50,300 nt of DNA, from NCBI GenBank assembly GCA_017553785.1, contig JAFZKD010000049.1:1-50300 (forward strand), in the 5' to 3' direction. Below, piece by piece: positions 1,333 to 50,300 of the stretch. Source of the DNA: Muribaculaceae bacterium (GTDB lineage Bacteria > Bacteroidota > Bacteroidia > Bacteroidales > Muribaculaceae). The position numbers were made by a program, and so were the translations under genes. Each line of letters begins with the position of its first letter. Positions within the stretch are counted from its first letter, which is position 1. The notes below the pieces were generated by a model. The model was not told the DNA's origin and searched no databases. It saw only the letters and a list, made by a program, of their open reading frames with translations.

Positions 1333-1346
1333 AACCCGACAGCATC

Positions 1347-3863: not shown

Positions 3864-5072
3864 TTACGGCAGGGATACTTTGCCCAGGATGCCCTTGAGG
3901 TGGGCGATTGTGATACCGTAGTTGGTCATGGGTGTTCCCTGGCGGCGGCATTGCATGACACGAGACATCATGAAGCGGCTGTTGAACATGCAGCCACCGC
4001 AATGAATGACGAGGTCATAGCATGTCACATCTTCGGGAAAATCCTTTCCAGCCACAATATCTATCTGCAAGCCGTTGCCCACGCGCTGGCGAAGCATGCG
4101 AGGAATCTTTTCCCGCCCGATATCCTCGGCTAGCGGGGCATGAGTGCAGGCTTCGGCAATCAACACGCGTGATTGCTCGGTCATGCGGTCGATGGCCATC
4201 GCACTTTTAACAAAAAACCGGATATCGCCCTTCTGGGCCGCCATGAGCACCGAGAAAGAAGTGAGCAAGCTTCCCTCTGGCTTTTTTTGCTCAACAATGT
4301 CAAACACCTGTGAATCGGTGATGATCAAGTGCGGCGGTTCTCTCATGGCTGCCAGCGTACGGTCGATGTCCTCGGTCGTGCTGCAGATGGCAGTACATCG
4401 CTTGTCCATCAGGTCGCGCAAGGTTTGTACTTGCGGCAAGATGAGCCGTCCCTTTGGTGCTTGCGGGTCTTGAGGCATGACCAGCAGCACGGTGTCACCG
4501 GCGTGGGCTAAATGACCTGTGAGGGACTGTTTCTCGCCTTCAGGAACAAGTCGAGCCAACGTTTGGCGCAGCAGGTCCAGTCCAGTGCCCTGGAGGGCGC
4601 TCACTGCGATGACCTCACTGCCGAGGCGTTTTGCTATCTTGTTGAGAAGGGTAGGATCAACCTCCTCCATCAGGTCAACCTTGTTTAGTGCCACCAGATA
4701 AGGCACGTCGGCCTGTTTGAGCATTGCCGCCCAAGCCGCTTCATCGTCAAGTGATTGTCCATCGGTTACCAGCAAGGCGATGTCGGTCTGTTTAATGATT
4801 TCATGGGTGCGCCTGGTGCGCAGGTCGCCCACTTCGCCGCTATCGTCAAAACCGGCCGTGTCAATCAGCACACAAGGCCCCAACGGCAATATTTCCATCG
4901 ATTTGATGACTGGGTCGGTCGTTGTGCCCGGTACGTCGCTTACCAGTGCCACCTGCTGCCCTGTGAGCGCATTGATAAGCGACGACTTGCCCACATTGCG
5001 GCGTCCGAACAACGCAATGTGTAGCCGCTCACTCTGCGGCGTCCTGTTAAAAGCATTCCCACTTTCAGCCAT
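3864..5072 (-). CDS. hydF: [FeFe] hydrogenase maturation GTPase HydF
   Basis: HydF is the scaffold on which the di-iron subcluster is assembled before delivery to HydA. The N-terminal third is an Era/TrmE-like GTPase: P-loop GRRNVGKSS (residues 23-31), a PGTTTDP switch, DTAG, and NKVD. The C-terminal cluster-binding part keeps a Cys in EACTHAP and the HCGGC motif at 357-361, which fits the family pattern CxH...HCxxC. At 402 residues it has the usual length. The start codon lies only 2 bases after the stop of the zeta-like gene, so the two are likely translated together. The other maturase gene here, hydG, is two genes upstream in the same operon. Confidence 0.95.
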   Translation of the reverse strand: MAESGNAFNRTPQSERLHIALFGRRNVGKSSLINALTGQQVALVSDVPGTTTDPVIKSMEILPLGPCVLIDTAGFDDSGEVGDLRTRRTHEIIKQTDIALLVTDGQSLDDEAAWAAMLKQADVPYLVALNKVDLMEEVDPTLLNKIAKRLGSEVIAVSALQGTGLDLLRQTLARLVPEGEKQSLTGHLAHAGDTVLLVMPQDPQAPKGRLILPQVQTLRDLMDKRCTAICSTTEDIDRTLAAMREPPHLIITDSQVFDIVEQKKPEGSLLTSFSVLMAAQKGDIRFFVKSAMAIDRMTEQSRVLIAEACTHAPLAEDIGREKIPRMLRQRVGNGLQIDIVAGKDFPEDVTCYDLVIHCGGCMFNSRFMMSRVMQCRRQGTPMTNYGITIAHLKGILGKVSLP

Positions 5073-5929: not shown

Positions 5930-7345
5930 TTAGAAGTGGAAATCTCGCTGGCCCTTGACGATGTCTTCAACGTGCTGGGTGGCGATTTCACGAACGCGCT
6001 GGTTAGAAATCTTGGCCAACTCCTTTTGGATTAGCACATCGCCTTTGGCGCGGGTTTCCTCGCTAGCGAAGTCTATCAGGTATTCCTTGAGTGTCATCAG
6101 CGCGTTGGGTGTGCAGATGTCACCGATCTTGCCTGCTTTTACCAGTTCCATGAAACGGTCGCCAGTGCGGCCCGAACGGTAGCAGGCGGTGCAGAAGCTG
6201 GGGATGTATCCGATAGACAGCAGCCAGTCGATGACTTCGTCAAGCGTGCGGGTATCGCTCACGTCAAACTGAGCCGTCTCGTCATGGCGTTCAACGGTGG
6301 TGTAACCGCCTACACTAGTGCGGCTGCCGCCACTGATCTGTGACACGCCCAAGTCAAGCACCTTGGAGCGCACACTCTGGCTTTCGCGGGTTGAGATGAT
6401 CATTCCCGTATAAGGCACTGCAAGACGGATGACCGCGATGATGCGGCAGAAGATTTCGTCGGGCAGAACATCGGGGAACTCATCGAGTGTAATGTCCTCA
6501 GCGGGGCAGATACGCGGCACGCTGATGGTGTGCGGACCAACACCGAATCTTGCCTCCAAATGCTCGGCGTGCATGAGCAGACCCACGAAGTCATAGCGAT
6601 AGGTGGTCAGGCCGTAGAGCACGCCGATGCCCACGTCATCGCATCCGCCCATCTGGGCGCGGTCCATCGCTTCGGTGTGGTATAAATAGTTGCTCTTCGG
6701 GCCAGTGGGATGCAGGGCCTCATAGTTCTTGCGGTTATAGGTCTCCTGGAACAGGATATAGGTGCCGATACCGGCAGCCTTCAGTTTTTCGTAGGCTTCG
6801 ACCTCGGTGGCGGCGATATTCACGTTCACGCGGCGAATCTCACCGTTGCCTACCTTGGTGTCATAGATGGTGTGGATGGATTCGAGGATGTATTCCAGCG
6901 GGTTCATCACGGGATGCTCTCCGGCTTCGAGTGCCAGTCGCTTGTGTCCCATCTTAACCAATGCCTCAACCTCGGCACGAATCTCGTCCTGTGACAGTTT
7001 CTTGCGGGGAATGGTCTTATTGATGGCATGGTAGGGGCAATAAACGCATCCGTTGATGCAGTAGTTCGAGAGATATAACGGAGCGAACAACACAATGCGG
7101 TTGCCGTAGAAACGTTGTTTTACATCGCGTGCCAGTTGCTCATAGCGCTGAATCAGGTCGGGCTGGTCACAGTCGAGCAGCACGGCAGCCTCGCGGTGTG
7201 TCAGTCCTTTGCACAGTGCCGCTTTGTCAATGATTTGCTCAATCAGGGCACGGTTGCTCTTGTTTTTCTCGGCATAGGCGAGCGTTTCCAATATTTCACT
7301 ATCGTCGATAAACTCATCGGCATGGTTCGATTTGACGTTATACAT
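5930..7345 (-). CDS. hydG: [FeFe] hydrogenase maturase HydG (radical SAM tyrosine lyase)
   Basis: HydG cleaves tyrosine with a radical SAM mechanism and supplies the CO and CN ligands of the H-cluster as an Fe-containing synthon. The radical SAM motif is CxxxCxxC at C96, C100 and C103 (YCINGCVYC). The C-terminal auxiliary cluster motif CX2CX22C is exact (CTAC, then 22 residues, then C), which separates HydG from the related ThiH. Length 471 is normal. It is the first gene of a minus-strand operon and has its own -7 promoter box upstream. HydE, the third maturase normally needed, is not in the window. Confidence 0.96.
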   Translation of the reverse strand: MYNVKSNHADEFIDDSEILETLAYAEKNKSNRALIEQIIDKAALCKGLTHREAAVLLDCDQPDLIQRYEQLARDVKQRFYGNRIVLFAPLYLSNYCINGCVYCPYHAINKTIPRKKLSQDEIRAEVEALVKMGHKRLALEAGEHPVMNPLEYILESIHTIYDTKVGNGEIRRVNVNIAATEVEAYEKLKAAGIGTYILFQETYNRKNYEALHPTGPKSNYLYHTEAMDRAQMGGCDDVGIGVLYGLTTYRYDFVGLLMHAEHLEARFGVGPHTISVPRICPAEDITLDEFPDVLPDEIFCRIIAVIRLAVPYTGMIISTRESQSVRSKVLDLGVSQISGGSRTSVGGYTTVERHDETAQFDVSDTRTLDEVIDWLLSIGYIPSFCTACYRSGRTGDRFMELVKAGKIGDICTPNALMTLKEYLIDFASEETRAKGDVLIQKELAKISNQRVREIATQHVEDIVKGQRDFHF

Positions 7346-15414: not shown

Positions 15415-17412
15415 ATGAAGAAATTATTATTCTTACTTATGAGTGTGGCAGTCTTAACTGCTAGTGCAGGGATTAACAAAGCCCCGCTCCAGAAGGATGT
15501 TGCCAAGTACAACGTCAAAGCTAAAACTGAGTTTGTGACTCCCTTCAAGATGAACCGTGTTGTTGAGAAACAGGTTCTCAGAGCTCCCGTTACCGAGCAG
15601 CCCGCTGGCGAGGTAAGGACATACCAACGTGCTGGTGATTGCCTTTATATTGATGGCCAGTACGTTACCGCTGGAACTCAAGACGGTTTTATCACCTTGA
15701 TTTTTGCTGAAGATAACATTGTTTGGTTCAAAAACATCTTCTATCAAGTTGGAGAGAACTATGGTGACAGTTATGTGTATGGTACGTTGAGTGCCGATGG
15801 TACAAAGATCACCGTTCCCATGGGCCAGTCAATTTATTACAGCGATTACTACAGTGCTGATGTTGTATTGTCATTTGGTACATCTTCAGTAGGTAGCAAC
15901 ATTGTCTGGACTCCCGATGAGAGCGTGACCGAGGTTGTTTATGCTATTGACGGTAACACTATCACTTTGGAAGGCTGCGGCGGTGCTGCTCCTTCAGGTT
16001 CAGATTATCCTCAATACGAGTACAATGGTTTGGGTTCAGTTTGGACCGATGACGGCTCGTTTGGTGGTTACCTCGAGTGGGAAACTGTATTCACTTTCGT
16101 AGTATTCCCGAACACTCCCGAGATCACTGTTACTCCTGCTGCCACCTCTGCCGATGTTGACTGGGCAGCCGATGAGAATTCTGAGGGCTACAACCTGCGC
16201 TGGCGTCCATGGACAGACCTGTCTGGCAATCCTGCCGTTTGGACTTTTGCTCTCGAGGATTTTGAGGACTATTGGCCTGATTTCTGGGGTTATGATGCCG
16301 ATGAAGACGGTTATGGTTGGGGCTTAGCCTATAGCAGCAGCGCCCAAGATGATGCTTGCATCTATTCTTACTCATGGTCAAGTTCCACCGGTTCTCTCTC
16401 TCCCGATAACTGGATTGGTACTCCCGATGTGCCTTTGAAGGGTAAGCTTCAGTTTACCGTTTGGGGTACCTCAGACAGCTGGCCCGATACATACCAGGTT
16501 TATGCTTTGGTAGACACGACGTTGTATCAGCTCTTCGAGGAAGATCTCCAGACCACTGCTGCTAAGCAGACTCTCGAGGTTGACTTGAGCGAATTCGATG
16601 GTGTTGAGGGTAGCATCGTCTTCCGTCACTACAATTGCACTAACCAGTATGCTATCTACATCGATGACATCATGGTTGGTGATCTCGATAACATTATCGA
16701 GCCCGCTGAGTGGACCTATGAAAATGGTATCACTGATGACTTCTTCAAGATTGAGGGTCTGACTCCCGGTACTAAGTATGAGGTACAGGTACAAGGTTAT
16801 AACCATGACTTCACCGGTGACTGGTGCGATATTGTTGAGTTCACCACGCTTTACAATGTTTACATGCTTGGTGGCAACGACCAGGCTTGGGATCCCACCC
16901 AAGGTGCTCAGTTCACCTATAGCGAGAAGAACGACGTTTACACGTTGGACTACACCTTCCCTGCTGAGTACAACTACTTCGGCCTCACCACCGAACTCGC
17001 TGAGAACAACGATGATGGTGGTTGGGCTTACATTGAGCCGTTCCGCTTCGGCGCTATTGCCGATGAGGGTACCGACTACTGGTACACTGGCGAAGAGGAT
17101 TACATCTCACTGACTTGGGATGCATATCATGCAATCCGCATCCCCGCTGGTGAGTATATCCTGACCGTTGACATGAACGAGATGAAGCTCTACATCGAGA
17201 AGGTAGAGGCTCCCGCTGGCCTGCGTGGTGACGTGAACTTGGATGAGCAAGTTACCATTGGTGACGTTACCGCTCTGATCGACTATCTGTTGACCGGTGA
17301 CGCAACTGGTCTCAGCTTGGATAACGCTGACTGCAATCTCGATGAGGATGTTACCATCGGTGACGTTACTACTCTTATCGACTTCTTGTTGACCGGCAAT
17401 TGGCCCGAGTAA
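15415..17412 (+). CDS. Secreted multidomain protein with dockerin-like C-terminus
   Basis: A 665-residue exported protein with a signal peptide (MKKLLFLLMSVAVLTASA). The body has a beta-rich N-terminal part, a fibronectin-III-like stretch near residues 235-265 (ITVTPAATSADVDW), a choice-of-anchor-J / cleaved-adhesin-like jellyroll (about 280-430) ending in YAIYIDDIMVGD, a second FN3-like piece (LTPGTKYEVQVQGY), and a SusE/F-like module with VYMLGGNDQAWDP. The final 60 residues hold two dockerin-like calcium repeats, GDVNLDEQVTIGDV and DCNLDEDVTIGDV, and end LLTGNWPE. No enzyme motif is seen. A surface or extracellular role in binding is likely. The next gene shares the tail. Domain borders are approximate. 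Confidence 0.78.
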   Translation: MKKLLFLLMSVAVLTASAGINKAPLQKDVAKYNVKAKTEFVTPFKMNRVVEKQVLRAPVTEQPAGEVRTYQRAGDCLYIDGQYVTAGTQDGFITLIFAEDNIVWFKNIFYQVGENYGDSYVYGTLSADGTKITVPMGQSIYYSDYYSADVVLSFGTSSVGSNIVWTPDESVTEVVYAIDGNTITLEGCGGAAPSGSDYPQYEYNGLGSVWTDDGSFGGYLEWETVFTFVVFPNTPEITVTPAATSADVDWAADENSEGYNLRWRPWTDLSGNPAVWTFALEDFEDYWPDFWGYDADEDGYGWGLAYSSSAQDDACIYSYSWSSSTGSLSPDNWIGTPDVPLKGKLQFTVWGTSDSWPDTYQVYALVDTTLYQLFEEDLQTTAAKQTLEVDLSEFDGVEGSIVFRHYNCTNQYAIYIDDIMVGDLDNIIEPAEWTYENGITDDFFKIEGLTPGTKYEVQVQGYNHDFTGDWCDIVEFTTLYNVYMLGGNDQAWDPTQGAQFTYSEKNDVYTLDYTFPAEYNYFGLTTELAENNDDGGWAYIEPFRFGAIADEGTDYWYTGEEDYISLTWDAYHAIRIPAGEYILTVDMNEMKLYIEKVEAPAGLRGDVNLDEQVTIGDVTALIDYLLTGDATGLSLDNADCNLDEDVTIGDVTTLIDFLLTGNWPE

Positions 17413-40329: not shown

Positions 40330-41211
40330 TTACAAGACATTGAGGACTTGCTCCTTGATTTGCTCGAGATGATCCTTCATGTGCACGACCAGGTTCTGCA
40401 ACTCGGCTTGGTTGGCTTTGGAGCCCATGGTGTTGACCTCGCGTCCGATCTCCTGGCTGATGAAACCCAATTTCTTGCCTTGTCCACACTGCTCGCTATG
40501 CATCGTCTCGAGGAAATAGTTCAGGTGGTTTTGGAGCCTGATTTTCTCTTCGGTGATGTCCAGTTTCTCGATGTAATATATGAGCTCTTGCTCAAAGCGG
40601 TTTTTATCATAGTCCGCCTCTTTGAGCTTGGCCAGAGAGTCGAGGATCCGGGCCTTGATTTTTTTGATGCGTGGTTCCTCGTACCGTGGCACTTCGTTCA
40701 GCAGCGCTTGGATAGCGGCGATTTTTTCTTCAAAGAATGTTGCCAGTCTGGCGCCTTCCTGACGGCGGAAAGCTATCAGTTCTTCGGTTGCGAGCAAGAC
40801 GACCTCTTTCACAACGTTCAATTCATCTTTCTCGACTTCGGTAAATTTAGCGTCGGTTTTCAATGCGTCGGGCATGCGAAGTAGGGTGGCGTACCAATCG
40901 TTAGGCTCTGGCAGGTCCAAAGCCTTGGCCATCTCCTCGATTTGTTGCTTGTACTGCTTGAGCATGGGCACGTTGATAGAGCCTGAGGGTGCGCCTTCGA
41001 TGGGTTCACAATAGACAAAAAGGTCAATCTTGCCACGCAGCAAGGCCTTTGACACCTCGTTGCGCAGTTCCATCTCGATTTCACGGTAATTTTGAGGTAT
41101 TCTCACCCCAAAATCCAGTTGTTTACTGTTCAGGGATTTAAGTTCGGCGGTGATTTTCTTGTTGTTGTACACCTTCACCGCTTTGCCAAATCCGGTCATT
41201 GATAATATCAT
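40330..41211 (-). CDS. YicC/YloC-family endoribonuclease
   Basis: A 293-residue cytoplasmic protein of the YicC family, shown in other bacteria to be an endoribonuclease. It has the N-terminal MTGFGKA, LKSLNSKQLDFGVRIP, RGKIDLFV and the C-terminal block GKKLGFISQEIGREVNTMGSKAN, followed by a short helix. These match the family across its length. It leads a unit with an outer-membrane barrel gene and gmk, an order in which yicC and gmk are neighbours in many bacteria. A -7 box is found at 41241-41248. Confidence 0.93.
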   Translation of the reverse strand: MILSMTGFGKAVKVYNNKKITAELKSLNSKQLDFGVRIPQNYREIEMELRNEVSKALLRGKIDLFVYCEPIEGAPSGSINVPMLKQYKQQIEEMAKALDLPEPNDWYATLLRMPDALKTDAKFTEVEKDELNVVKEVVLLATEELIAFRRQEGARLATFFEEKIAAIQALLNEVPRYEEPRIKKIKARILDSLAKLKEADYDKNRFEQELIYYIEKLDITEEKIRLQNHLNYFLETMHSEQCGQGKKLGFISQEIGREVNTMGSKANQAELQNLVVHMKDHLEQIKEQVLNVL

Positions 41212-41240
41212 TTGTAAATCAGATTTTTGCTATAATCTTG

Positions 41241-41248
41241 CAAAAGTA
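41241..41248 (-). promoter_or_regulatory. -7 box of the yicC unit
   Basis: On the minus strand TACTTTTG, 30 bases before the yicC ATG. The -33 is not clear. Confidence 0.5.
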
Positions 41249-41351
41249 CAAAAAATATTCTTGTTGTGCCGATTCTGATGCCTTAAAATTGCAACAAGCA
41301 ATGTCCAGTCTTTGTGTCGGTGTAAAAAATGGCAAGGTTGTAACATTTATC

Positions 41352-41382
41352 TTGCTCAATCCGTTAAAAAAATGTATCTTTG
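41352..41382 (+). promoter_or_regulatory. Promoter of the phosphonate-glycan operon
   Basis: TTG (41352-41354), a 20-base spacer, TATCTTTG (41375-41382). Transcription should begin near 41389. No other promoter box or terminator is evident before 49.8 kb, so this may drive all eight genes. Confidence 0.78.
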
Positions 41383-41418
41383 CAAGTTGTGTCCTTTCAG
41401 GACTGCAAATGTGAGTTT

Positions 41419-42366
41419 ATGGAGAACTTGACTTTAGCGATAGTTGTGCCTTGTTATAACGAGGTGGAAGTGTTGTCTCAGACCAACGAACGTCTGCGTG
41501 CCTTGCTTGATGGCATGGAGCGTGACAAGTTGGTGACGGCGGGCAGTTATATCCTCTATGTCGATGACGGCTCCCGAGACGGAACGTGGACGCTGATTGA
41601 TGGTTATTGCGAGAATTATGATCATGTGCGAGGCTTGAAACTGGCGGGTAATGCGGGTCATCAGAATGCCCTGATGGCGGGCCTTGAAACGGCTCGTGCC
41701 GATGCAGACCTTGTCGTGTCGGTTGATGCCGACCTGCAGGATGATATCAGCGTCATACCCGAGATGATCATGAAGTATCATCAGGGCAATGACATCGTCT
41801 ATGGTGTGCGTCGCAACCGCAAGTCGGATTCATTTTTCAAGCGCACGACCGCCCAATGCTTTTATCGCTTCATGAGTGCTATGGGCGCCAGGACGGTCAA
41901 TAATCATGCCGATTTCAGGCTGATGAGCCGTCGCGCTGTCGATGCCTTGTGCGCCTATGACGAGCGCAACCTGTTCTTGCGTGGCCTAGTTCCCAAATTG
42001 GGCTATAAGAGCGATGTGGTTTATTACGACCGGTTGGAGCGCAAGGCGGGCGTGAGCAAATATCCGCTGGGCAAGATGATGTCCTTTGCGGTTGACGGTG
42101 TCACCTCGTTTAGCGTCAAGCCGTTGCGATTGATATTCTACCTTGGCCTGGTTTTTCTTATCATTAGTTTGGCCATTCTAGCCTATGTGATCGCGTCATT
42201 GTGCAAGGGCGATGGTGTCCAGGGTTGGGCATCGCTGATGTTGTCCATCTGGTTTGTTGGCGGATGCCTGCTCATCTGCCTGAGCATCATTGCAGCCTAT
42301 ATCGGTCGCATTTACACTGAGGGAAAGCATCGTCCCCGATACAACATCGAGAAATATGTCAAATGA
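41419..42366 (+). CDS. Membrane-anchored GT2 glycosyltransferase (polyprenyl-phosphate type)
   Basis: A 315-residue glycosyltransferase of the DPM1/GtrB-like branch of GT2. It has the nucleotide-binding start IVVPCYNEVEVL, the metal site VDADLQDD, and a long catalytic domain to about residue 225. Two C-terminal helices follow (LIFYLGLVFLIISLAILAYVIA and LSIWFVGGCLLICLSIIAAYIG segments). Such enzymes transfer a hexose from a nucleotide sugar to undecaprenyl phosphate on the inner face. ATG 41419 is chosen because the frame upstream runs into the promoter. Its stop overlaps the next gene, suggesting coupling. The sugar is not known; galE in the operon hints at galactose. Confidence 0.87.
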   Translation: MENLTLAIVVPCYNEVEVLSQTNERLRALLDGMERDKLVTAGSYILYVDDGSRDGTWTLIDGYCENYDHVRGLKLAGNAGHQNALMAGLETARADADLVVSVDADLQDDISVIPEMIMKYHQGNDIVYGVRRNRKSDSFFKRTTAQCFYRFMSAMGARTVNNHADFRLMSRRAVDALCAYDERNLFLRGLVPKLGYKSDVVYYDRLERKAGVSKYPLGKMMSFAVDGVTSFSVKPLRLIFYLGLVFLIISLAILAYVIASLCKGDGVQGWASLMLSIWFVGGCLLICLSIIAAYIGRIYTEGKHRPRYNIEKYVK

Positions 42367-42901
42367 AATCAATATGGCTCTGAATCATTCAGATAACCTC
42401 AATCAGAATCCTGGAATCCCGCGTCCCTGTGACATCAGCCTGTTGTTGACCGATGTTGACGGCACGTTGACCGACGGCGGCATGTACTATGGCACCGACG
42501 GCACCGAGTTCAAGAAGTTCAACACCCGTGACGGCATGGGACTACAGATGCTGCAACGCGTGGGGGTAAAGGTGGGTATTGTCACCAGTGAGAATGTTGC
42601 CATCAACGAGAACCGCGCCCGAAAGTTGGGTTTGGATTTCCTCAAGCAGGGCGCCCGTGACGGCGGCAAACTGACCGCAGCCCGTGAGATTTGCGACGAG
42701 ATGGGTATTACCATGCAACAGGTGGCCTATATCGGAGACGATGTGAACTGTTATGACCTGCTGGCGGCAGTGGGGTGGGCGGCTTGTCCTGCCGATGCCT
42801 GTGACAAGGTGAAAAGCATACCAGGCATACACATCCTGCAACGTAAGGGCGGTGATGCCTGTGTGCGAGAATGGATAGATTTGATTTTAGCTAAGCAATG
42901 A
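42356..42901 (+). CDS. KdsC-like HAD-IIIA phosphatase
   Basis: A 181-residue HAD-superfamily phosphatase of the KdsC/YrbI type. Motif I is LLLTDVDGTLTDGGMYY (DxD), motif II VGIVTSEN, the Lys is in KLGLDFLKQGARDG, and motif IV is YIGDDVNCYDLL. Close relatives dephosphorylate Kdo-8-phosphate or sialic-acid 9-phosphates, and sit in polysaccharide loci. No kdsA, kdsB or neuB lies nearby, so the substrate could differ. The start is ATG 42356, overlapping the GT2 gene by 11 bases; ATG 42374 is an alternative. Its stop overlaps the flippase ATG (ATGA). Confidence 0.85.
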   Translation: MSNEINMALNHSDNLNQNPGIPRPCDISLLLTDVDGTLTDGGMYYGTDGTEFKKFNTRDGMGLQMLQRVGVKVGIVTSENVAINENRARKLGLDFLKQGARDGGKLTAAREICDEMGITMQQVAYIGDDVNCYDLLAAVGWAACPADACDKVKSIPGIHILQRKGGDACVREWIDLILAKQ

Positions 42902-44370
42902 GTAGCGAAGGTATTGATAATCAGAATCTTAAAGAGAAGACGGCCCGTGGTTTGTATTGGGCTTTCCTCAGTAGTGGTGGCATCCAACTGCTCAACCTGA
43001 TTATCGGTATCTTTCTTGCCCGTCTGCTGTCACCTGGCGAATACGGTATTGTGGGAATGCTGGCGATTTTCACACTTCTTGCCAACAACTTGCAGGAGAG
43101 CGGATTTGGCGTGGCGCTTGTCAACATCAAGGACATCAAGCACAATGACTATAATTCGGTCTTCTGGTTCAACGTGGGGATGAGCCTCATTTTGTACCTG
43201 ATACTGTTCCTGTGCGCTCCGTTGATTGCCTCGTTTTTCCATCAGCCATGTCTGGAGCCGTTGTCACGCTTTGTCTTCTTGGCCTTTGTCATTGCGTCGT
43301 TGAGCATATCGCCCAATGCGATGCTCGTGAGGGACCTGAAGATGAAGGAGAAGGCAATCACTTCACTCTCGGCACTGGTCATATCGGGCACAGTGGCAGT
43401 CATCATGGCCCTGAAAGGCTTTTCCTATTGGAGTTTGGCAACCCAACAGGTATTGTATAATGTGGTTATCGCCATTGGACGCTATTACTATACCCGCTGG
43501 TGCCCGACTTTCCATGTGGACTTCACACCAGTGAAGCAGATGTTCTCTTTCAGCTACAAGGTGTTGATTACTACTGTCTTGACCACCGTCAACAATAATA
43601 TGCTGACAGTAATCTTCGGTCGTCTATTCCCCGCCCAGGCAGTGGGTAATTTCACTCAGGCCAACAAGTGGAACACCATGGCCAATCAGCTGGTTTCCAA
43701 TACGGTGTCACAAGTTGCCCAACCCGTTCTGGTGCAGGTGAACGATGACATGGAACGTCGACGCCGCATATTTGGCAAGATGCTCCGATTCACGGCATTC
43801 CTCGCTTTTCCTGCCATGTTTGGCTTGGCGATAGTCGCCCCGCAGGTAATCCTGCTTGCCATTGGCGAAAAATGGGTAAACAGCATTCCTCTGTTACAGG
43901 TCCTGTGTGTCAGTGGTGCGTTCATTCCCTTATACACGGTTTATCAGAACTTGTTCCTGAGTCAGGGGAAATCCGACATTTACATGTGGCTAACCATCTC
44001 GCAGATTGCCGTTATGCTCATTGCCGTGCTGGCATGTCACAAGTTGGGCATTATGGCAATGGTCATTGCCTTTGCTTGCATCAATATCCTGTGGCTGTTG
44101 GCATGGCAGCTGTTCGCCTCACGGCTCATCGGCTACCGCTTTGTGACCATGTTGCGGGATCTGTTGCCGTTCATGGTCATCGCTCTGGCTGCGATGGTTG
44201 TGACCTATCTCGTGACGAATGGCATCAGCAATATGATTATCCTGCTTGTGGTGCGCATAGCACTGGCCTCTGCGCTTTATCTTATCACGATGAAGCGGCT
44301 GCGGGCTAGAATCCTAGAGGAGTGTATTGAATTTATCCGTTCCAAGAAAATAAATCATAAACAACAATAA
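42898..44370 (+). CDS. Polysaccharide/lipid-linked oligosaccharide flippase (Wzx/MOP family)
   Basis: A 490-residue polytopic inner-membrane protein of the MOP (Wzx-like, polysaccharide_synt) superfamily. It starts with a cytoplasmic helix, then SSGGIQLLNLIIGIFLARLLSPGEYGIVGM, a family feature, and about 14 hydrophobic helices. Such proteins flip undecaprenyl-linked glycans from the cytoplasmic to the periplasmic face. It overlaps the HAD gene by 4 bases and lies 11 bases before galE. In this operon it probably moves the phosphonate-bearing or galactose-containing glycan. No polymerase (Wzy) is present. Confidence 0.9.
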   Translation: MSSEGIDNQNLKEKTARGLYWAFLSSGGIQLLNLIIGIFLARLLSPGEYGIVGMLAIFTLLANNLQESGFGVALVNIKDIKHNDYNSVFWFNVGMSLILYLILFLCAPLIASFFHQPCLEPLSRFVFLAFVIASLSISPNAMLVRDLKMKEKAITSLSALVISGTVAVIMALKGFSYWSLATQQVLYNVVIAIGRYYYTRWCPTFHVDFTPVKQMFSFSYKVLITTVLTTVNNNMLTVIFGRLFPAQAVGNFTQANKWNTMANQLVSNTVSQVAQPVLVQVNDDMERRRRIFGKMLRFTAFLAFPAMFGLAIVAPQVILLAIGEKWVNSIPLLQVLCVSGAFIPLYTVYQNLFLSQGKSDIYMWLTISQIAVMLIAVLACHKLGIMAMVIAFACINILWLLAWQLFASRLIGYRFVTMLRDLLPFMVIALAAMVVTYLVTNGISNMIILLVVRIALASALYLITMKRLRARILEECIEFIRSKKINHKQQ

Positions 44371-44381
44371 TCAACGAATCA

Positions 44382-45416
44382 ATGAAAGGTAAAATTTTAG
44401 TCACTGGCGGAACCGGCTTCATCGGTTCACACACGACAGTCGAACTGCAACAGGCTGGTTACGAGGTGGTCATCATCGACAACCTGAGCAATAGCAATGT
44501 CGAGGTGCTTGATGGTATTGAGCGCATTACAGGCATCCGTCCTGTCTTTGTCGAGGGCGACTGCACCGATAAGGCGGTGCTGCGCAAGATGTTTGAGGAT
44601 AACTCTGGAATCAGCGGCATCATCAACTTCGCTGCCAGCAAGGCGGTGGGCGAGAGTATTGAGAAACCCATCATGTACTACCGCAACAACCTCAATATCC
44701 TGCTCAACTTGCTTGAGTTGATGCCCGAATTCGGCGTGAAGGGCTTTGTGTTCTCGTCCTCGTGCACCGTCTATGGTGAGCCCGACAAGAACCCCATCAC
44801 CGAGGACGCGCCCACCAAAAAGGCCACTTCGCCCTATGGTGCCACCAAGCAGATCTGTGAGGACATCATTACGGACGTCATCCGCAGTGGCAGTCCGATC
44901 AAGGCGATTCTGCTGCGTTACTTTAACCCTATCGGCGCGCATCCAAGTGCCGAGATCGGTGAGTTGCCCAACGGTGTGCCTCAGAACCTGGTACCTTACC
45001 TGACACAGACGGCCATCGGTGTGCGCAAGGAGTTGAGCATCTTTGGCGACGATTACCCCACACGTGACGGCTCTTGCATCCGTGACTTCATCAATGTAGT
45101 GGATCTTGCCAAGGCTCACGTCAAGGCATTGGAGCGTATGCTCGAGGATAAGAGTGACGAGGCGCTTGAGATTTTCAATATCGGCACGGGTAACGGTGCT
45201 TCGGTGCTGGAACTGCTCCACTCGTTCGAGCGTGCAACGGGCGTTCAGGTGCCCCACAAGATCGCACCGCGCCGCCCTGGCGATATCATCCAGATATGGG
45301 CTGACCCCAAGCGCGCCAACGAAGTCCTGGGCTGGCACGCCGAGATTTCCCTCGACGACACCATGCTCAGCGCCTGGAATTGGCAGAAAAAACTCCGCGA
45401 GCGCGGCATCATGTAA
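44382..45416 (+). CDS. galE: UDP-glucose 4-epimerase
   Basis: This enzyme interconverts UDP-glucose and UDP-galactose with bound NAD. The 344-residue SDR protein has the Rossmann loop VTGGTGFIGSH, the DNLSNS loop, SSSCTVYG, and the catalytic YxxxK as YGATK, followed by RYFNPIGAHPSAEIGE. The last block includes RRPGDIIQIWADPKRA. It lies 11 bases after the flippase and 16 before licD, so it belongs to the operon and likely supplies the galactose donor. UDP-GlcNAc epimerase activity is possible. Confidence 0.94.
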   Translation: MKGKILVTGGTGFIGSHTTVELQQAGYEVVIIDNLSNSNVEVLDGIERITGIRPVFVEGDCTDKAVLRKMFEDNSGISGIINFAASKAVGESIEKPIMYYRNNLNILLNLLELMPEFGVKGFVFSSSCTVYGEPDKNPITEDAPTKKATSPYGATKQICEDIITDVIRSGSPIKAILLRYFNPIGAHPSAEIGELPNGVPQNLVPYLTQTAIGVRKELSIFGDDYPTRDGSCIRDFINVVDLAKAHVKALERMLEDKSDEALEIFNIGTGNGASVLELLHSFERATGVQVPHKIAPRRPGDIIQIWADPKRANEVLGWHAEISLDDTMLSAWNWQKKLRERGIM

Positions 45417-45432
45417 ACCAAGAGCTTTGTAT

Positions 45433-46281
45433 ATGCACGATAATCTCACATTCAATCAGGATGAACTGAGGGCACGATTTAACCCTGAGGGTTCTCCAAT
45501 ACGCAAACAACAAATGGTGATGCTAGGGATGCTGAAGGAATTGGACCGCATCTGTAGGAAGCACGAGATTCCCTATTTTCTGTATTGGGGAACGTTGTTG
45601 GGCGCTATTCGTCACGATGGTTTCATACCTTGGGATGATGATTTGGATGTGGGCGTCATGCGCCAGGATTATCTGCGGTTAATGAAAGTGCTTCCTGAGG
45701 AACTTCCTGATCATATCGTCTTGCAGACTAACGACACAGACAAGAACTATTTTTATTTCTTTGCCAAGTTGCGTGACAAGAACTCGTTCCTCGATGAGGG
45801 TGCTTATGATAGGGTATTCAAGGAAAGGGGGATATTCATTGACATTTTCCCGATGGACAGCATTTTGCCGTCGACTCAACGGTGGCGTCTTCAAAGTCAG
45901 GCTTACAACTGGTTTCGAAAAGGAAATGGAAACGAATCTTCAATGAAGAAAATAAGGGCGTTGACGTGGTTCAACCGTCATGTTTCGTTTCCAGTGTTGC
46001 GTGTGTTTAGCAAAATCGCTTGCTGCAAGAAGATCACCTTTGACTATGGCATCCCGTTCCACCAAGTTCTTCAAAGGGATGACATATTCCCATTATCCAC
46101 ACATGTGTTTGAAGGGATGGAAACTTTTATCCCAGGTAATAGCCACAAGGTTTTGCAATCGCTCTATGGCGACTTTATGCAATTACCGCCTGATTTGGAT
46201 AATGTGTATCATCATGTCGAGAAATTAGAATTTTTCACGAACAATTTCCACAATGAGAATGATGACAGAGCAGCACATTGA
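45433..46281 (+). CDS. LicD-family transferase (nucleotidyl-phosphonate or phosphocholine type)
   Basis: A 282-residue LicD-family enzyme, the group that moves phosphocholine or related groups from CDP/CMP donors to glycans. The hallmark is intact: YFLYWGTLLGAIRHDGFIPWDDDLDVG, with the DDxD metal site, then IDIFPMDS. No signal peptide or membrane helix is seen, so it acts on the cytoplasmic face. Its context with a cytidylyltransferase-PEP mutase fusion suggests that it transfers a CMP-linked phosphonate. The upstream frame is open through galE, but ATG 45433 is the natural start. It overlaps the next gene by about 29 bases. Confidence 0.88.
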   Translation: MHDNLTFNQDELRARFNPEGSPIRKQQMVMLGMLKELDRICRKHEIPYFLYWGTLLGAIRHDGFIPWDDDLDVGVMRQDYLRLMKVLPEELPDHIVLQTNDTDKNYFYFFAKLRDKNSFLDEGAYDRVFKERGIFIDIFPMDSILPSTQRWRLQSQAYNWFRKGNGNESSMKKIRALTWFNRHVSFPVLRVFSKIACCKKITFDYGIPFHQVLQRDDIFPLSTHVFEGMETFIPGNSHKVLQSLYGDFMQLPPDLDNVYHHVEKLEFFTNNFHNENDDRAAH

Positions 46282-47335
46282 GTTTTGCCAGAATGAGAAC
46301 GATTTCAGAATAGCGTTTTCTTCGCTGATTAGAAACGCAAGGAAACTGTTTATTGTTCATGGCCATCAGTCATATCGGTCTTGTGGCGTAAAATCGCTCA
46401 TTGATGAAGTGACGTCCCGATTAAGGATGAGATTCAAGGAGTTTGAGGATTTCAGCGAGAATCCCAAGAAAGAGGATGTGGATACGGGTGTTGAAGTCCT
46501 GCTTCAGAATTCTCCCGATATGATTGTTGCGGCGGGTGGCGGCAGCGTGATGGATATGGCTAAACTTATCAGGTACTATGCATGTTCAAAGATTCCTATA
46601 CTGGCTATTCCCACAACTTCAGGCACAGGTGCCGAGTCCACACAGTTCGCGGTATGCTATATTGATGGTGTTAAACATTCTATCAACGACATGTCAATAT
46701 TGCCAAATCATGTGATATTATTTCCGCCCTTCACTTATCAAAACAGTCGCTATCTCACTGCGTGCACAGGGTTTGACGCACTTGCTCAGGCAATTGAATC
46801 CTATTGGAATATAAATGCCACTGAAGAATCTGACGAATATGCCCTTCGTGCCATTCATCAGATTTATCCTGTTCTTGGCAAAGAAATGCTTTCGGCTGAT
46901 GATCGGTCTAGACTGATGACTGGAGCTAACGATGCTGGAAAAGCGATCAACATTACCCGTACAACGGTTCCGCATGCTTTGTCCTATACTTTGACATCAA
47001 AGTATGGCTATCCGCATGGCCATGCGGTTGCCTTGACTTTCCCCTATTTCCTCAATTACTATCTTGAGGGTCCAGAGAGTGCCTACCGCGGTGATGATTA
47101 TGAGAAATATAAGGCTAAAATGGATCTTCTTCGTTCGATACTGGATGTAGGTAGCAAACCATACTCGGCAATGAAAGAATTCATCTGCCGTTTGGGTTTG
47201 GGCTTTGATCCGAAACGGGATTTTGACGATCTGACCGTTGCTCATGGATTAAATCCCGAAAGGGCAGGCAATACGCCACTAGCCATTGACGACCTCATTA
47301 TCCTCTCGGCTGTGAAATCAATTAGGGAATATTAA
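46253..47335 (+). CDS. Iron-containing alcohol dehydrogenase, probable phosphonoacetaldehyde reductase
   Basis: A 360-residue group III (Fe-type) alcohol dehydrogenase. It has AAGGGSVMDMAKL, IPTTSGTGAESTQFAV, the DALAQAIESY metal-side helix and the His-rich YGYPHGHAVALTFP. With PEP mutase and phosphonopyruvate decarboxylase right behind it, the best reading is reduction of phosphonoacetaldehyde to 2-hydroxyethylphosphonate, as PhpC does in phosphinothricin and related pathways. The start could be ATG 46253, 46259 or 46262, all inside the end of licD. No aminotransferase is present, so 2-aminoethylphosphonate is less likely as the main product. Confidence 0.84.
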   Translation: MRMMTEQHIEFCQNENDFRIAFSSLIRNARKLFIVHGHQSYRSCGVKSLIDEVTSRLRMRFKEFEDFSENPKKEDVDTGVEVLLQNSPDMIVAAGGGSVMDMAKLIRYYACSKIPILAIPTTSGTGAESTQFAVCYIDGVKHSINDMSILPNHVILFPPFTYQNSRYLTACTGFDALAQAIESYWNINATEESDEYALRAIHQIYPVLGKEMLSADDRSRLMTGANDAGKAINITRTTVPHALSYTLTSKYGYPHGHAVALTFPYFLNYYLEGPESAYRGDDYEKYKAKMDLLRSILDVGSKPYSAMKEFICRLGLGFDPKRDFDDLTVAHGLNPERAGNTPLAIDDLIILSAVKSIREY

Positions 47336-47350
47336 TAAAATCAATATATT

Positions 47351-48661
47351 ATGGATAACAACGAAAAATTAGTTTATGTGGGAATGAGTGCAGATATCAT
47401 TCACCCTGGACACCTTAATATCTTGCATGAGGCATCCAAATATGGCCGAGTGATTGTGGGTGTGCTCACCGATGAGGCTATAGCAAGTTATAAACGATTA
47501 CCGTATCTGAATTATGATCAGCGCTCGCTGGTGGTCAGTAACTTGAAAGGCGTGTCTGAGGTGATGCCACAAACCACACTGGACTATCGTCCCAATCTTG
47601 AGAAGGTGCGCCCTGATTACGTGGTGCATGGCGATGATTGGAAAAATGGCGTCCAGGCTAAAACGCGTCAGCAAGTGATTGATAAACTTGCCGAATGGGG
47701 CGGGGTAGTGATTGACGTTCCTTATACCAAGGGTATATCCTCTACGATGCTCAACGAGAGGCTCAAAGAAATCGGAACCACACCCGATGTTCGCCTCAAG
47801 AGGTTGCGCCGTCTCATTAACGCAAAGAAAATTGTAAGGATTTGTGAGTCCCACAACGGTTTGACAGGCTTGATTATCGAAAATACCGCTGTCAGTATCA
47901 ATAATATGAAACGGGAGTTTGATGGAATGTGGGCAAGTTCTCTCACAGACTCCACGAGTAAGGGAAAACCCGATATTGAGGCAGTGGATTTGACCACACG
48001 TCTTCATGACCTGAATGATTCGCTTGAGGTGACGACCAAACCCGTGATATATGATGGAGACACGGGTGGCAAGCCTGAGCACTTCGTCTTCACTGTAAGA
48101 ACACTGGAGCGACTTGGCGTGTCTGCGATTATTATTGAGGACAAAGTGGGGCTGAAAAAGAATTCGCTTTTCGGCACCGACGCGATACAGACTCAAGACA
48201 GCATCGAGGGCTTTTGCGCTAAAATCGGCGCCGGTAAACGTGCTCAGATCACTTCAGACTTTATGATTATTGCACGTTGTGAAAGTCTCATTGCGGGAAA
48301 ATCGGTCGATGACGCACTTGAGCGTTGTTTAGCCTATGTAAAGGCGGGAGCTGATGGCATTATGATTCACAGCAAGAATAAATCAGGCGAAGACATTAAG
48401 GAGTTCTGTCTGCGTTTCAGGAAGATTGAGCCGAATGTGCCACTTGTTGTTGTACCGACAACATATAACCAAATCACCGAAGATGAGCTTGCAGAGTGGG
48501 GCGTGAATATAGTCATTTACGCGAATCACTTGCTACGTGCCGCATATCCTGCAATGGTTAAATGCGCCGAGAGCATCCTCACTCATGGCCGCTCGTATGA
48601 GGCCAATGACCTGTGTATGCCCATCAAGCAGATTCTTGAATTGATTCCTGGTACTAAGTAA
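47351..48661 (+). CDS. aepX: Fused cytidylyltransferase-phosphoenolpyruvate mutase
   Basis: A 436-residue two-domain enzyme. Residues 1-140 form a nucleotidyltransferase of the cytidylyltransferase type: [15 protein letters not shown] with HPGH at 18-21 and GISST at 128-132. Residues 150-436 are PEP mutase of the isocitrate-lyase fold, with the diagnostic [10 protein letters not shown] (263-272, matching EDKxxxxxNS) and DGDTGG (235-240). PEP mutase makes phosphonopyruvate, the C-P bond-forming step. The fused cytidylyltransferase would activate the final phosphonate as a CMP ester, as known for PntC-type domains. It lies between the reductase and decarboxylase genes with gaps of 15 and 12 bases. 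Confidence 0.94.
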
Positions 48662-48673
48662 TATGATGCAGTT

Positions 48674-49804
48674 ATGATTTCACCCAGTCGTTTATTTGAT
48701 GAATTGAAGTCTCGTGATGTCGATTTCTATACCGGTGTCCCGGATTCGCTGTTGAAGAACCTGTGTGCCTATATTACCGATCATCTTCCTGCTAGTCAGC
48801 ACATCATCGCTGCCAATGAGGGCGGTGCGGTGGCTCTGGCGGCAGGATATTATTTGGCCACAGGGAAAATCCCTGTGGTGTATATGCAAAATTCAGGTTT
48901 AGGCAACACCGTGAATCCGTTAATGTCATTGACTGATAAGTTGGTGTATAAAATACCTGTGTTGCTCATTATTGGATGGCGTGGTGAACCTGGCGTGAAA
49001 GATGAGCCACAGCATCGCAAACAAGGACTAGTGACAATTCCTTTGCTTGAGACATTGGGTATTGAACATGAGATTATGGTCGAAGATGAATCTTTGCTTC
49101 CAGCCCAAGTGGAGCGTGCGGTTTCCCACATGAGCAATACTGGAGAAGCATTTGCTCTAGTTGTGAGGAAGGGCACATTCGACGACTACATGCTAAGAAC
49201 CAACCAGGAGTCTGCTCTTTCCCTAAATCGAGAACGGGCTATTGAATTAATCACAAGTGCTATCACTGACCGGGATGTGATTGTCTCGACAACCGGAAAG
49301 ACCAGTCGTGAACTGTTTGAATATCGTACAGCTTTACACCAAGGACATCAACAGGATTTCTTGACGGTAGGCTCAATGGGTCACGCATCTCAAATTGCTC
49401 TTGGCATTGCATTAAATCAGCCTGACCGTAATGTGTATTGTTTTGATGGTGATGGCGCCACGATAATGCACATGGGAAACATGGCTATCATTGGTACTGT
49501 GGCTCCTGAGAATTATTATCATATAGTCTTTAATAATGGTGCCCATGATTCTGTTGGAGGACAACCCACGGTCGGTTTTAAAGTTGATATTCCAGCAGTA
49601 GCCAAGGCTTTGGGCTATAAGACTGTCGTCAGTGTGGACAATGAGGAAGACCTGATCAGTCAGTTAAGGGACTTGACAAATAATAAAGCGCCATTACTGT
49701 TTGAGGTGAAAGTGCTGAAAGGTGCACGCAAAGACTTGGGACGTCCCACGACAACGCCAATTGAAAATAAAGAGGCGCTTATGTCGTTTTTGCTTGACAA
49801 ATAA
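48674..49804 (+). CDS. aepY: Phosphonopyruvate decarboxylase
   Basis: A 376-residue thiamine-diphosphate enzyme that decarboxylates phosphonopyruvate to phosphonoacetaldehyde, pulling the unfavourable mutase step forward. The N-terminal pyrimidine domain has FYTGVPDSLLKNL, ANEGGAVALAAGYY with the catalytic Glu, and YMQNSGLGNTVNPLMSL. The C-terminal PP domain has the ThDP motif FDGDGATIMHMGNMA...VFNNGAHDSVGGQP. The length and these motifs match Ppd rather than sulfopyruvate decarboxylase. It is the last gene of the operon; the shared hairpin beyond it follows at 49818. Confidence 0.94.
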   Translation: MISPSRLFDELKSRDVDFYTGVPDSLLKNLCAYITDHLPASQHIIAANEGGAVALAAGYYLATGKIPVVYMQNSGLGNTVNPLMSLTDKLVYKIPVLLIIGWRGEPGVKDEPQHRKQGLVTIPLLETLGIEHEIMVEDESLLPAQVERAVSHMSNTGEAFALVVRKGTFDDYMLRTNQESALSLNRERAIELITSAITDRDVIVSTTGKTSRELFEYRTALHQGHQQDFLTVGSMGHASQIALGIALNQPDRNVYCFDGDGATIMHMGNMAIIGTVAPENYYHIVFNNGAHDSVGGQPTVGFKVDIPAVAKALGYKTVVSVDNEEDLISQLRDLTNNKAPLLFEVKVLKGARKDLGRPTTTPIENKEALMSFLLDK

Positions 49805-49817
49805 GATCCTTAGAAAA

Positions 49818-49860
49818 ACAGTACAGGCTCCCAACCATCAAAGTTGAGAGCCTGTTCTGT
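49818..49860. terminator. Terminator between aepY and rpsP
   Basis: Bases 49818-49835 pair with 49843-49860 (two mismatches) around a CATCAAA loop. The minus strand ends in TTTTT, so it best serves rpsP; it can also stop the phosphonate operon. Confidence 0.78.
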
Positions 49861-49887
49861 GATAGTAAATAAAGAACGGGCTGTTCT

Positions 49888-50300
49888 TTATGCCTCGGGA
49901 GCAGCCTCCTCAGCGGGAGCCTCCTCGGCGGCAGGCTCTTCGGCGGGAGCCTCGGCGGCAGCAGCCTCTTGAGCAGCCTTGGCAGCCTCAGCCTCGGCAG
50001 CGGCCTTAGCGGCAGCAATCTCGGCTTTCTTCTTGGCTACAGCCTCGGCCTTGGCCTCGTTCTTCTTAGCCTCCTCGGCGATGGTCTTCTTGTCGGCAGC
50101 CTTCTTGTCGTCGCGTTCCTTGTTGCGGATAGCGTCGAGCTTAGCCTGCTTCTCGGCCTTCCAGGCCTCGAAACGCTTCTGAGCCTCTTCCTCGGAGAAA
50201 GCGCCCTTCTTGACGCCACCCTGGAGGTGCTTCATCAGCATCACACCCTCGCGAGAGAGAATGTTGCGTACAGTGTCGGTGGGAATTGCACCTACGTTGA
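49888..50300 (-). CDS. rpsP: Ribosomal protein S16, 5' partial, with Ala/Glu-rich tail
   Basis: The C-terminal part of 30S protein S16; the N-terminal third lies beyond the window end. The visible frame reads [19 protein letters not shown], then [20 protein letters not shown], which matches the S16 core in Bacteroidetes and is open to the last base. The remainder is a charged coiled-coil-like stretch ([20 protein letters not shown]) and a low-complexity tail of Ala, Glu and Pro ending APEEA-like EAAPEA. Bacteroidetes S16 proteins carry such extensions, absent in E. coli. A small AAAGAAC/GTTCTTT hairpin spans the stop codon. Confidence 0.92.

Follow-up and report, generated by a model that had tools for sequence, protein, structure and literature searches.

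A putative operon for 2-hydroxyethylphosphonate synthesis and surface-glycan capping in a Muribaculaceae bacterium

The window analyzed here is the whole 50,300-nt stretch at the start of contig JAFZKD010000049.1 from a Muribaculaceae bacterium, whose genome is ∼80% complete, so that absences from the genome are weak evidence. Open reading frame translations and family profile searches revealed an operon of eight genes, all on the plus strand, the last of which ends at position 49804. With refined start positions, the gaps between neighboring genes, from the glycosyltransferase gene at the front to ppd at the end, are −11, −4, 11, 16, −29, 15, and 12 nt (range −29 to +16). A Bacteroidota-type promoter, TTG-N20-TATCTTTG, is located at 41352..41382 (+), with the TTG at 41352-41354, a 20-nt spacer, and TATCTTTG at 41375-41382. 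It is the sole strict match (spacer of 18-22) on the plus strand of 41212-49804; shuffled versions of this stretch contained 0.30 such matches on average (300 shuffles), and shuffling the 207-nt leader gave a match in 45 of 2000 cases. A strict match is present in five of six homologous leaders, the window's own counted. The listed start codon of the first gene, TTG 41380, is unlikely to be the true one, since it lies within the −7 box of this promoter; an ATG is found at 41419. The predicted arrangement of eight tightly spaced genes behind one promoter was borne out, with all eight genes present and the promoter conserved, and we infer that they form a single transcript. The genome-neighborhood comparison proposed in the original prediction recovered the gene order in relatives, and the arrangement is therefore not due to chance. 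The convergent flanking genes, both on the minus strand, are presumably yicC-like (40330-41211) and rpsP-like (49888 onward), names assigned from the look of the sequence and not by family search. An empty yicC/rpsP site could not be demonstrated: in 12 yicC loci (L156-L167; G426 was left out), yicC and gmk stand together, with no rpsP match within the 7-10 kb read.

The first gene (41419..42366, +) encodes a PgfS/ArnC-like glycosyltransferase of family GT2, which matches PF00535 with 82.9 bits and the PgfS model NF047588 with 224.6 bits, under the cut-off of 500. Hydrophobic stretches can be seen by eye in its C-terminus, and the protein, the only glycosyltransferase in the operon, probably acts on polyprenyl phosphate. 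The second gene (42356..42901, +) encodes a HAD phosphatase of the KdsC/KDN-9-phosphatase type (TIGR01670, 127.1 bits, cut-off 106.95; NF058599, 160.4 bits, cut-off 180). Because this is the sole KdsC-family gene over the cut-off in the genome, and likewise in G455, G471, G478, and G484, four relatives that share the operon core, it is probably a housekeeping gene of general envelope metabolism; a role in the phosphonate route was rejected as unlikely on the same grounds. The third gene (42898..44370, +) encodes a Wzx (MOP) flippase that reaches 653.4 bits against NF058658 (‘O-glycosylation flippase’) and fails its curated cut-off of 720 bits. Across 119 family genomes the NF058658 scores form two separate groups, 16 above 570 and all others listed at or below 380, and the flippase of the window belongs to the upper one. 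The fourth gene, galE (44382..45416, +), encodes a UDP-glucose 4-epimerase (TIGR01179, 400.9 bits, cut-off 262.3). It is 95-97% identical among the four relatives named above and L081, and looks native to the lineage.

The following gene (45433..46281, +) encodes a LicD-family phosphotransferase with an IPWDDDLDV stretch (PF04991, 147 bits, cut-off 22.6), as had been predicted. Its sole NCBIfam match is the diacylglycerol cholinephosphotransferase model NF045866, with 89.4 bits against a cut-off of 225. Next comes a metal-dependent alcohol dehydrogenase (Fe-ADH; 46253..47335, +; PF00465, 102.8 bits), whose best PDB match, 6jko, is the sulfoacetaldehyde reductase BkTauF. In an alignment to BkTauF its metal ligands are D, Q, H, and H, the same as in BkTauF itself, where the authors term the glutamine atypical (PMC6616044); 11 of 50 related Fe-ADHs carry histidine instead. 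The protein falls far below the cut-off for PsrA, the phosphonate-associated Fe-ADH (TIGR03405, 135.8 vs 423.7 bits). We propose that it is a phosphonoacetaldehyde reductase, a substrate that the metal set and the kinship to BkTauF, whose own aldehyde is isosteric, do not settle. The seventh gene (47351..48661, +) encodes a Fom1-like bifunctional protein (TIGR02320, PDB 5x3d) with a cytidylyltransferase domain (residues ∼1-145) and a PEP mutase domain (∼150-436). The latter passes TIGR02320 (412.1 bits, cut-off 319.55) and contains the signature EDKxxxxxNS. The last gene, ppd (48674..49804, +), encodes a phosphonopyruvate decarboxylase (TIGR03297, 513.5 bits, cut-off 312.5). With both enzymes over their curated cut-offs, family knowledge supports the predicted formation of phosphonoacetaldehyde, and profile searches agree with the reading of the fused domain as a cytidylyltransferase.

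The two halves of the operon differ in base composition: the first four genes (GT2 to galE) have GC3 values of 62.6-71.6%, the last four (licD to ppd) of 42.2-51.2%. The GT2-HAD-Wzx-galE core is followed in L081 by a 2-aminoethylphosphonate (AEP) module and in G471 by an NTP-transferase/CobD-like fusion without PEP mutase; in G455 the headgroup module is located apart from the core. The headgroup half thus looks like a lower-GC module that became attached to a native operon for the envelope and is interchangeable with other headgroup modules.

The best PDB match of the cytidylyltransferase domain is Fom1 (5x3d, E = 2.8e-55), with 84 of 136 residues identical, and the HxGH nucleotidyltransferase motif is present as HPGH at residues 18-21. 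According to Rice et al. (PMC6697681), the Fom1 domain makes CMP-2-hydroxyethylphosphonate (CMP-HEP). The 99 loci compared encode 93 distinct fused proteins. Within 6 kb, an Fe-ADH accompanies 51 of these and an AEP transaminase 26; the two never occur together, 16 proteins lack both, and the cytidylyltransferase subtype mostly tracks the type of neighbor. HxGH occurred in 51/51 Fe-ADH-linked and 0/26 AEP-linked proteins of this first set. As a rule on its own, the motif broke on fresh loci: in four of six (L152-L155), HHGH is intact although the neighbor is an AEP transaminase, so that an intact motif alone is not proof of HEP. The motif was replaced by a signature of 11 residues that distinguish Fe-ADH-linked domains from AEP-linked ones: the domain of the window carries all 11, equal to Fom1, whereas the 26 AEP-linked proteins carry 0-2 and four others 8-9. 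The positions were picked on 92 proteins, the window's included, and only the six later loci L150-L155 are out of sample. Fom1 itself has 11/12 residues fixed in the Fe-ADH-associated class and 0/6 of those fixed in the AEP-associated class. These comparisons suggest a cytidylyltransferase of the Fom1 (HEP) type. L152-L155 stem from another class of the phylum and are intermediate on the new signature (8-9/11); given such an intermediate class, the neighbor rule is provisional. In a tree of the PEP mutase domain, three changes of neighbor type are needed, each accompanied by a change of the cytidylyltransferase motif. We rejected several independent switches as statistical proof, since three pairs give p = 0.25 and the cytidylyltransferase tree needs only one change; the pattern fits domain exchange equally well as repeated loss. 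Early branch points have reportedly been surveyed, probably in Microb Genomics 2022, and we do not claim novelty for the HEP/AEP neighbor rule.

Because of the Fom1-like domain, the Asp-Gln-His-His Fe-ADH, and the lack of an AEP transaminase among the eight proteins in profile searches, the phosphonate of the operon is probably HEP and not AEP. The Fe-ADH, which had been given no role in the original prediction, therefore points to HEP. We consider it likely that the operon produces HEP through the opening steps of a fosfomycin-type pathway and uses it to cap a surface glycan. PEP mutase would convert PEP to phosphonopyruvate, Ppd would decarboxylate this to phosphonoacetaldehyde, and the Fe-ADH would reduce the latter to HEP, which the N-terminal domain fused to PEP mutase would activate to CMP-HEP. 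Still in the cytoplasm, LicD, the proposed HEP transferase, would use CMP-HEP to place the phosphonyl group of HEP on a sugar of a glycan linked to undecaprenyl, and once complete this glycan would be carried over the inner membrane by Wzx. The three HEP-forming steps and the activation are suggested by family membership and residue signatures; for transfer by LicD and flipping by Wzx, the indications are family and linkage. The predicted decoration of the surface with a phosphonate was right in kind, with PEP mutase, Ppd, cytidylyltransferase, and LicD all supported, and is sharpened to HEP by the Fe-ADH and the Fom1-type domain. To call the operon self-contained was too strong, given the probably housekeeping HAD phosphatase, the native-looking galE, the single glycosyltransferase, and the separate module in G455.

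An AEP cap, with the amino group introduced by a transaminase encoded elsewhere in the genome, would agree with AEP being the common surface phosphonate (PMC6697681) and with the AEP module of L081. We nevertheless regard it as very unlikely: PhnW-AepZ was not found over the cut-off of 360.8 in the ∼80% complete genome (best 36.4 bits) or in G455, G478, and G484 (best 163.3 bits, in G484), the Fe-ADH would be left without a role, and the domain has the full Fom1-type signature. It is also unlikely that LicD serves another CDP-linked group and that the HEP module has a different outlet. LicD does not follow the headgroup: its relatives beside the AEP module of L081 and the fusion of G471 are 71% and 68% identical to it, respectively, and its donor specificity is therefore only putative. 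But the eight genes include no further CDP-alcohol-forming gene, and an activating nucleotidyltransferase lies within 6 kb in 9/9 loci where LicD and this flippase are no more than 6 kb apart, all from the window's genus or L081, the activator in the window being the fused domain itself. Hardly any credence can be given to a free, secreted, antibiotic-like phosphonate towards fosfomycin. The three HEP-making genes do match the first steps of fosfomycin biosynthesis, but its later steps require a B12 radical SAM methyltransferase and an epoxidase, no later-step gene is found among the eight proteins, and LicD and Wzx share the operon. A fosfomycin-like antibiotic cluster was rejected for the absence of these later genes from the eight.

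If HEP is the cap, as we favor, its acceptor could be a protein O-glycan, capsule, LPS, or a glycolipid. A protein O-glycan is plausible and the most interesting single candidate; the chance that the same HEP chemistry instead serves a capsule, an LPS O-antigen repeat, or a glycolipid falls just short of even. The NCBIfam match of LicD, a diacylglycerol cholinephosphotransferase model, points that way, and in Bacteroides fragilis, the precedent for AEP, the phosphonate sits on a capsular polysaccharide (PMC6697681). Moreover, among 80 named loci only L059, L066, and L081, the three that possess the complete operon core, have a flippase more than 45% identical to that of the window, and most HEP modules therefore serve other glycans. 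Synteny with metG, the conserved start of the Bacteroidota O-glycan locus (PMC12871550), is also missing in the window's lineage: metG is absent from the contig, the genome's own metG is split over contig ends, and no such Wzx was found in the stretches around metG of seven family relatives. In the order relative L182, another flippase stands between metG and the related Wzx. On the other hand, the flippase belongs to the upper NF058658 group, of which two of eight order relatives read (both family f59) have metG directly beside the related Wzx, and the eight proteins include no wzy or chain-length gene product. A general partnership of LicD with this group of Wzx flippases was not supported: LicD lies near 13/35 upper-group vs 2/17 control Wzx genes (Fisher p = 0.10, not significant), and together with an activator near 11/35 vs 2/17 (p = 0.18), after dropping loci with less than 3 kb on one side (6/41 and 3/20) and with the 20 best-ranked weaker Wzx matches, not random ones, as controls.

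A more speculative and on balance doubtful extension is that a subgroup of the genus builds one surface glycan, possibly an outer protein O-glycan, whose headgroup cassette (HEP, AEP, or a CDP-activated amine, perhaps phosphoethanolamine) is interchangeable behind the same core. One and the same glycoprotein sugar would then bear different phosphonate or phosphate caps in different species; CMP-HEP, a known intermediate of fosfomycin biosynthesis, would be a donor for surface decoration, and the cytidylylation in that pathway could derive from it. Such natural exchanges at one locus would offer a handle on the role that a phosphonate cap plays in a gut commensal. The predicted cap is exact, HEP adding 107.998 Da to the glycan where AEP is usually expected, and the residue signature combined with the neighbor rule (Fe-ADH or AEP transaminase) could allow surface phosphonates of the HEP and AEP types to be distinguished in genomes. 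In the operon, a phosphonate module is also linked with a relative of the Bacteroidota O-glycan flippases. Phosphonoglycans of two actinobacteria are said to bear HEP; judged by the titles and abstract openings of the papers listed, we found no publication on CMP-HEP transfer by LicD or on HEP on Bacteroidota glycans.

The closest known counterpart is Fom1 of the early fosfomycin pathway (Streptomyces wedmorensis), likewise a PEP mutase with an N-terminal cytidylyltransferase, which shares the domain identity and whole class signature described above and is accompanied by Ppd and an alcohol dehydrogenase. In contrast to that pathway, the eight genes of the window include LicD and a flippase instead of the later genes, and CMP-HEP would be a glycan donor and not a methylation substrate. 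The Fe-ADH shares its metal set with its best PDB match BkTauF (6JKO; PMC6616044), but its substrate would be phosphonoacetaldehyde instead of sulfoacetaldehyde, and Phe252 and Phe265 are replaced by Ile and Tyr. The phosphonyl tailoring (Pnt) clusters with PntC (Rice et al. 2019, PMC6697681) resemble the operon in the PEP mutase-nucleotidyltransferase fusion, the LicD-like transferases close by, and the CMP-phosphonate logic, and 23.6% of Ppm enzymes are fused to PF01467. The characterized PntCs belong to PF12804 and act on AEP, whereas the domain of the window is of the Fom1-like PF01467 type and is accompanied by an Fe-ADH but no AEP transaminase. With LFG, the Bacteroidota locus for general protein O-glycosylation, the operon has in common a Wzx related to metG-adjoining ones; it differs in that its flippase is not beside metG and that it has one glycosyltransferase instead of a run. 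According to the LFG review (PMC12871550), the outer glycans rarely bear phosphate, glycero, or sugar-alcohol groups, and its text contains no word starting with ‘phospho’. The phosphonate cluster of Prochlorococcus SB (PMC8931226) comes from a marine cyanobacterium with PglC and PglL, unlike the window, which derives from a gut Bacteroidales member and whose eight operon proteins include LicD but not PglL. Both combine phosphonate genes with a Wzx flippase, an association that is read there as decoration of an O-linked glycoprotein.

The eight plus-strand genes of the operon (41419-49804) are arranged head to tail with intergenic gaps of -29 to +16 nt. The window is an entire contig (C54) of a 2.54-Mb assembly of 122 contigs that is ∼80% complete. 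The families originally predicted for the eight gene products (GT2, HAD, Wzx, GalE, LicD, Fe-ADH, cytidylyltransferase-PEP mutase, and Ppd) were borne out by profile family searches. The single promoter proposed in the original prediction was also recovered: one strict Bacteroidota-type promoter precedes the first gene and is kept in five of six homologous leaders (window counted), the remaining bases of which have mostly diverged. The eight genes are probably cotranscribed as one transcript. The stretch 49823-50298 holds an rpsP-like gene on the minus strand, which encodes a long Ala/Glu-rich C-terminal extension, and, between this gene and Ppd, a minus-strand hairpin with a T run behind it (49855-49823). 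Elsewhere in the window, at 1-3116, 3864-5072, and 5930-7345, an [FeFe] hydrogenase large subunit is encoded beside a NuoF-like protein; genes for HydF and for a radical SAM/BATS protein, presumably HydG-like, are nearby. The gene at 15415-17412 encodes a protein of 665 aa that combines cleaved-adhesin, fn3, and type I dockerin domains.

In the predicted reaction sequence, PEP mutase and Ppd would produce phosphonoacetaldehyde, from which a reductase would lead to 2-hydroxyethylphosphonate (HEP) and a transaminase to 2-aminoethylphosphonate (AEP). The operon encodes a metal-dependent alcohol dehydrogenase, and none of its eight genes encodes a transaminase. Sulfoacetaldehyde is the sulfonate analogue of phosphonoacetaldehyde. 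The closest PDB match of the Fe-ADH is 6jko, described as the sulfoacetaldehyde reductase BkTauF (PMC6616044). The metal ligands named there are Asp192, Gln196, His261, and His275, with the glutamine termed atypical by the authors (PMC6616044); the window's enzyme likewise has D, Q, H, and H at the corresponding positions. In a set of 50 Fe-ADHs from such loci (window counted), D, H, and H are present in all, and the atypical place is occupied by Q in 39 and by H in the other 11. The cytidylyltransferase domain shares 84 of 136 residues with that of Fom1, an enzyme of fosfomycin biosynthesis, and CMP-HEP is given as the product of the Fom1 domain by Rice et al. (PMC6697681).

Relatives of the fused cytidylyltransferase-PEP mutase were found in 12 of 295 genomes sampled from the order, 9 of 198 from the family, and 7 of 395 from the phylum, with the window's own genome in each sample; a thirteenth order match (G016) consists of the mutase part alone, and that of G370 is interrupted by a contig end. 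At least 557 places were confirmed in named genomes, and the best 80 were retained. Among these best 80 of at least 557, the nearest loci stem from assemblies titled Bacteroidales or Muribaculaceae, and the fused protein of a roe deer abomasum assembly is 93% identical to that of the window. We take several of the nearest assemblies' titles to be those of rumen collections. Ninety-nine loci, including the best 80 of at least 557, yielded 93 distinct proteins once duplicate sequences and any matches that were weaker or shorter had been set aside. Classed by neighbours within 6 kb, a distance within which some loci end, 51 are linked to an Fe-ADH, 26 to an AEP transaminase, 16 to neither, and none to both. 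For 21 of the 26 transaminase-linked proteins, a separate PF12804-like nucleotidyltransferase is encoded no more than 6 kb away.

The cytidylyltransferase motif was compared for the 92 fused proteins with a length of 400 aa or more (window counted): 53 carry HxGH, including all 51 linked to Fe-ADH, and 39 carry HxGL or HxGI, including all 26 linked to the transaminase. Signature residues were defined as fixed (at least 95%) in the HxGH group and rare (at most 10%) in the HxGL/HxGI group, or the reverse. Fom1 possesses 11 of the 12 HxGH-group residues and none of the six of the reverse set. Six fresh loci were then read from the phylum sample, all from one family (f142) of another class. Two combine an Fe-ADH with the complete Fom1 signature. 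The other four (L152-L155) have an adjoining AEP transaminase together with an intact HHGH and 8-9 of 11 signature residues, differing at positions 13 and 46. The HxGH motif alone therefore cannot separate HEP from AEP and was rejected as a discriminator. In these four loci, TK[FY]SR replaces ASYKR; they perhaps represent an active PF01467 AEP cytidylyltransferase, a third class that would activate AEP itself. A further observation concerns AEP-kind loci of Bacteroidales and Fibrobacter: the protein at L081:9977-11305 and 37 others of the 92 have lost the second histidine (HPGL for HPGH), and one protein reads HPGI. Conserved residues are otherwise kept in the HPGL proteins, often with a separate PF12804-like enzyme nearby. 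This domain may be inactive or repurposed, under selection.

Compared to the window's fused protein, the 26 proteins linked to a transaminase are 70-83% identical in the mutase part but only 47-58% in the cytidylyltransferase part; Fe-ADH-linked proteins reach at least 65% in both, the divergent L025 excepted. Three switches of neighbour type are needed on the mutase tree, compared to a single one on the cytidylyltransferase tree. Because of this identity split and these counts, the cytidylyltransferase half appears to move together with the type of headgroup.

In the neighbourhood comparison suggested with the original prediction, the core from GT2 to galE recurs, and the genes after galE vary. 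Four sampled genomes (G455, G471, G478, G484) also possess the core (GT2, HAD, Wzx, galE), as does the named assembly that contains locus L081; yicC is upstream of it in G471, G478, and L081, and rpsP is downstream of the whole locus in G478, G484, and L081. In the window and G484, galE is followed by licD, Fe-ADH, the fused protein, and Ppd; in G478 by Fe-ADH, the fused protein, Ppd, and then a licD with 60% identity; and in L081 by licD, an HPGL-class fused protein, Ppd, a PF12804 enzyme, and an AEP transaminase (466 bits, cut-off 360.8). In G471, licD is accompanied by a gene for a 607-aa protein in which a PF12804 domain is fused to a CobD-like decarboxylase (TIGR01140, 197.8 bits, below the cut-off of 290.55), an arrangement that could make CDP-ethanolamine; no PEP mutase over the cut-off was found in this genome (best PF13714 match, 26.6 bits). 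The G455 core has an extra gene between Wzx and galE and lacks licD behind galE. Its module (licD, Fe-ADH, fused protein, Ppd) is located on a separate contig behind unrelated genes and can therefore stand alone. In the window, GC3 is 62.6-71.6% from GT2 to galE and 42.2-51.2% from licD to ppd, a drop that fits a later arrival of the licD-ppd half. The window, G484, and G455 encode LicDs that share 68-72% identity with the LicDs next to the AEP and CobD-like modules but only 60-62% with that of G478, even though G478 carries the HEP module. Thus, LicD does not track the headgroup.

The original prediction named a surface glycan or glycolipid as the acceptor, which in this broad form we consider quite likely. 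Both the acceptor and any biological role of the operon are putative. A protein O-glycan in particular would be suggested by the flippase. With the NF058658 model ('O-glycosylation flippase'), the window's Wzx obtains 653 bits, below the cut-off of 720. Of 119 genomes of the family, 16 have a match above 570, all other matches listed reach at most 380, and 41 lack a match at the threshold used. In 295 order genomes, 14 score at least 550 and five pass the cut-off. Gene surroundings were read for 8 of those 14, the window's excluded: metG lies immediately before the flippase, in the same orientation, in G258 and G059 (both over the cut-off and of one family), and a second flippase separates metG from the related one in G060. 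The Bacteroides O-glycan locus is described as beginning with metG and then wzx in a 2025 review (PMC12871550). This score group and the metG-adjoining kin indicate, at the level of sequence, that the flippase is related to O-glycan flippases. In the window's lineage, metG is not next to the flippase and is located elsewhere, and the operon thus does not represent a canonical O-glycan locus. A protein O-glycan is a plausible acceptor, though less likely than not. LicD occurs near such flippases in the window's genus and in family f68 (three of three read); its enrichment is not significant across all loci. Related flippases were also seen near LicD together with an NTP-transferase/CobD-like fusion (L043-L045) or a TagD-like cytidylyltransferase (L047) in the same genus, and with an enzyme that we take to be IspD-like in family f68 (L179, L180). 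These six loci suggest that related glycans bear varied phosphate headgroups. By calculation from the formulas, a glycan would gain +107.998 Da with HEP, +107.014 Da with AEP, and +123.009 Da with phosphoethanolamine.

Compared to the canonical O-glycan locus of Bacteroidota, the operon thus has a flippase that is akin, and metG adjacency is absent. Fusions of PEP mutase with PF01467 are common, accounting for 23.6% of Ppm enzymes according to Rice et al. (PMC6697681), and cell-surface phosphonates, including AEP on the B. fragilis capsule, are already known from the same source. To this our analysis adds a residue signature together with a neighbour rule, the latter of which may already be in print, a putative assignment of HEP to the LicD-Wzx operon of gut Bacteroidales, and the observation that headgroup modules are swapped behind a shared core.
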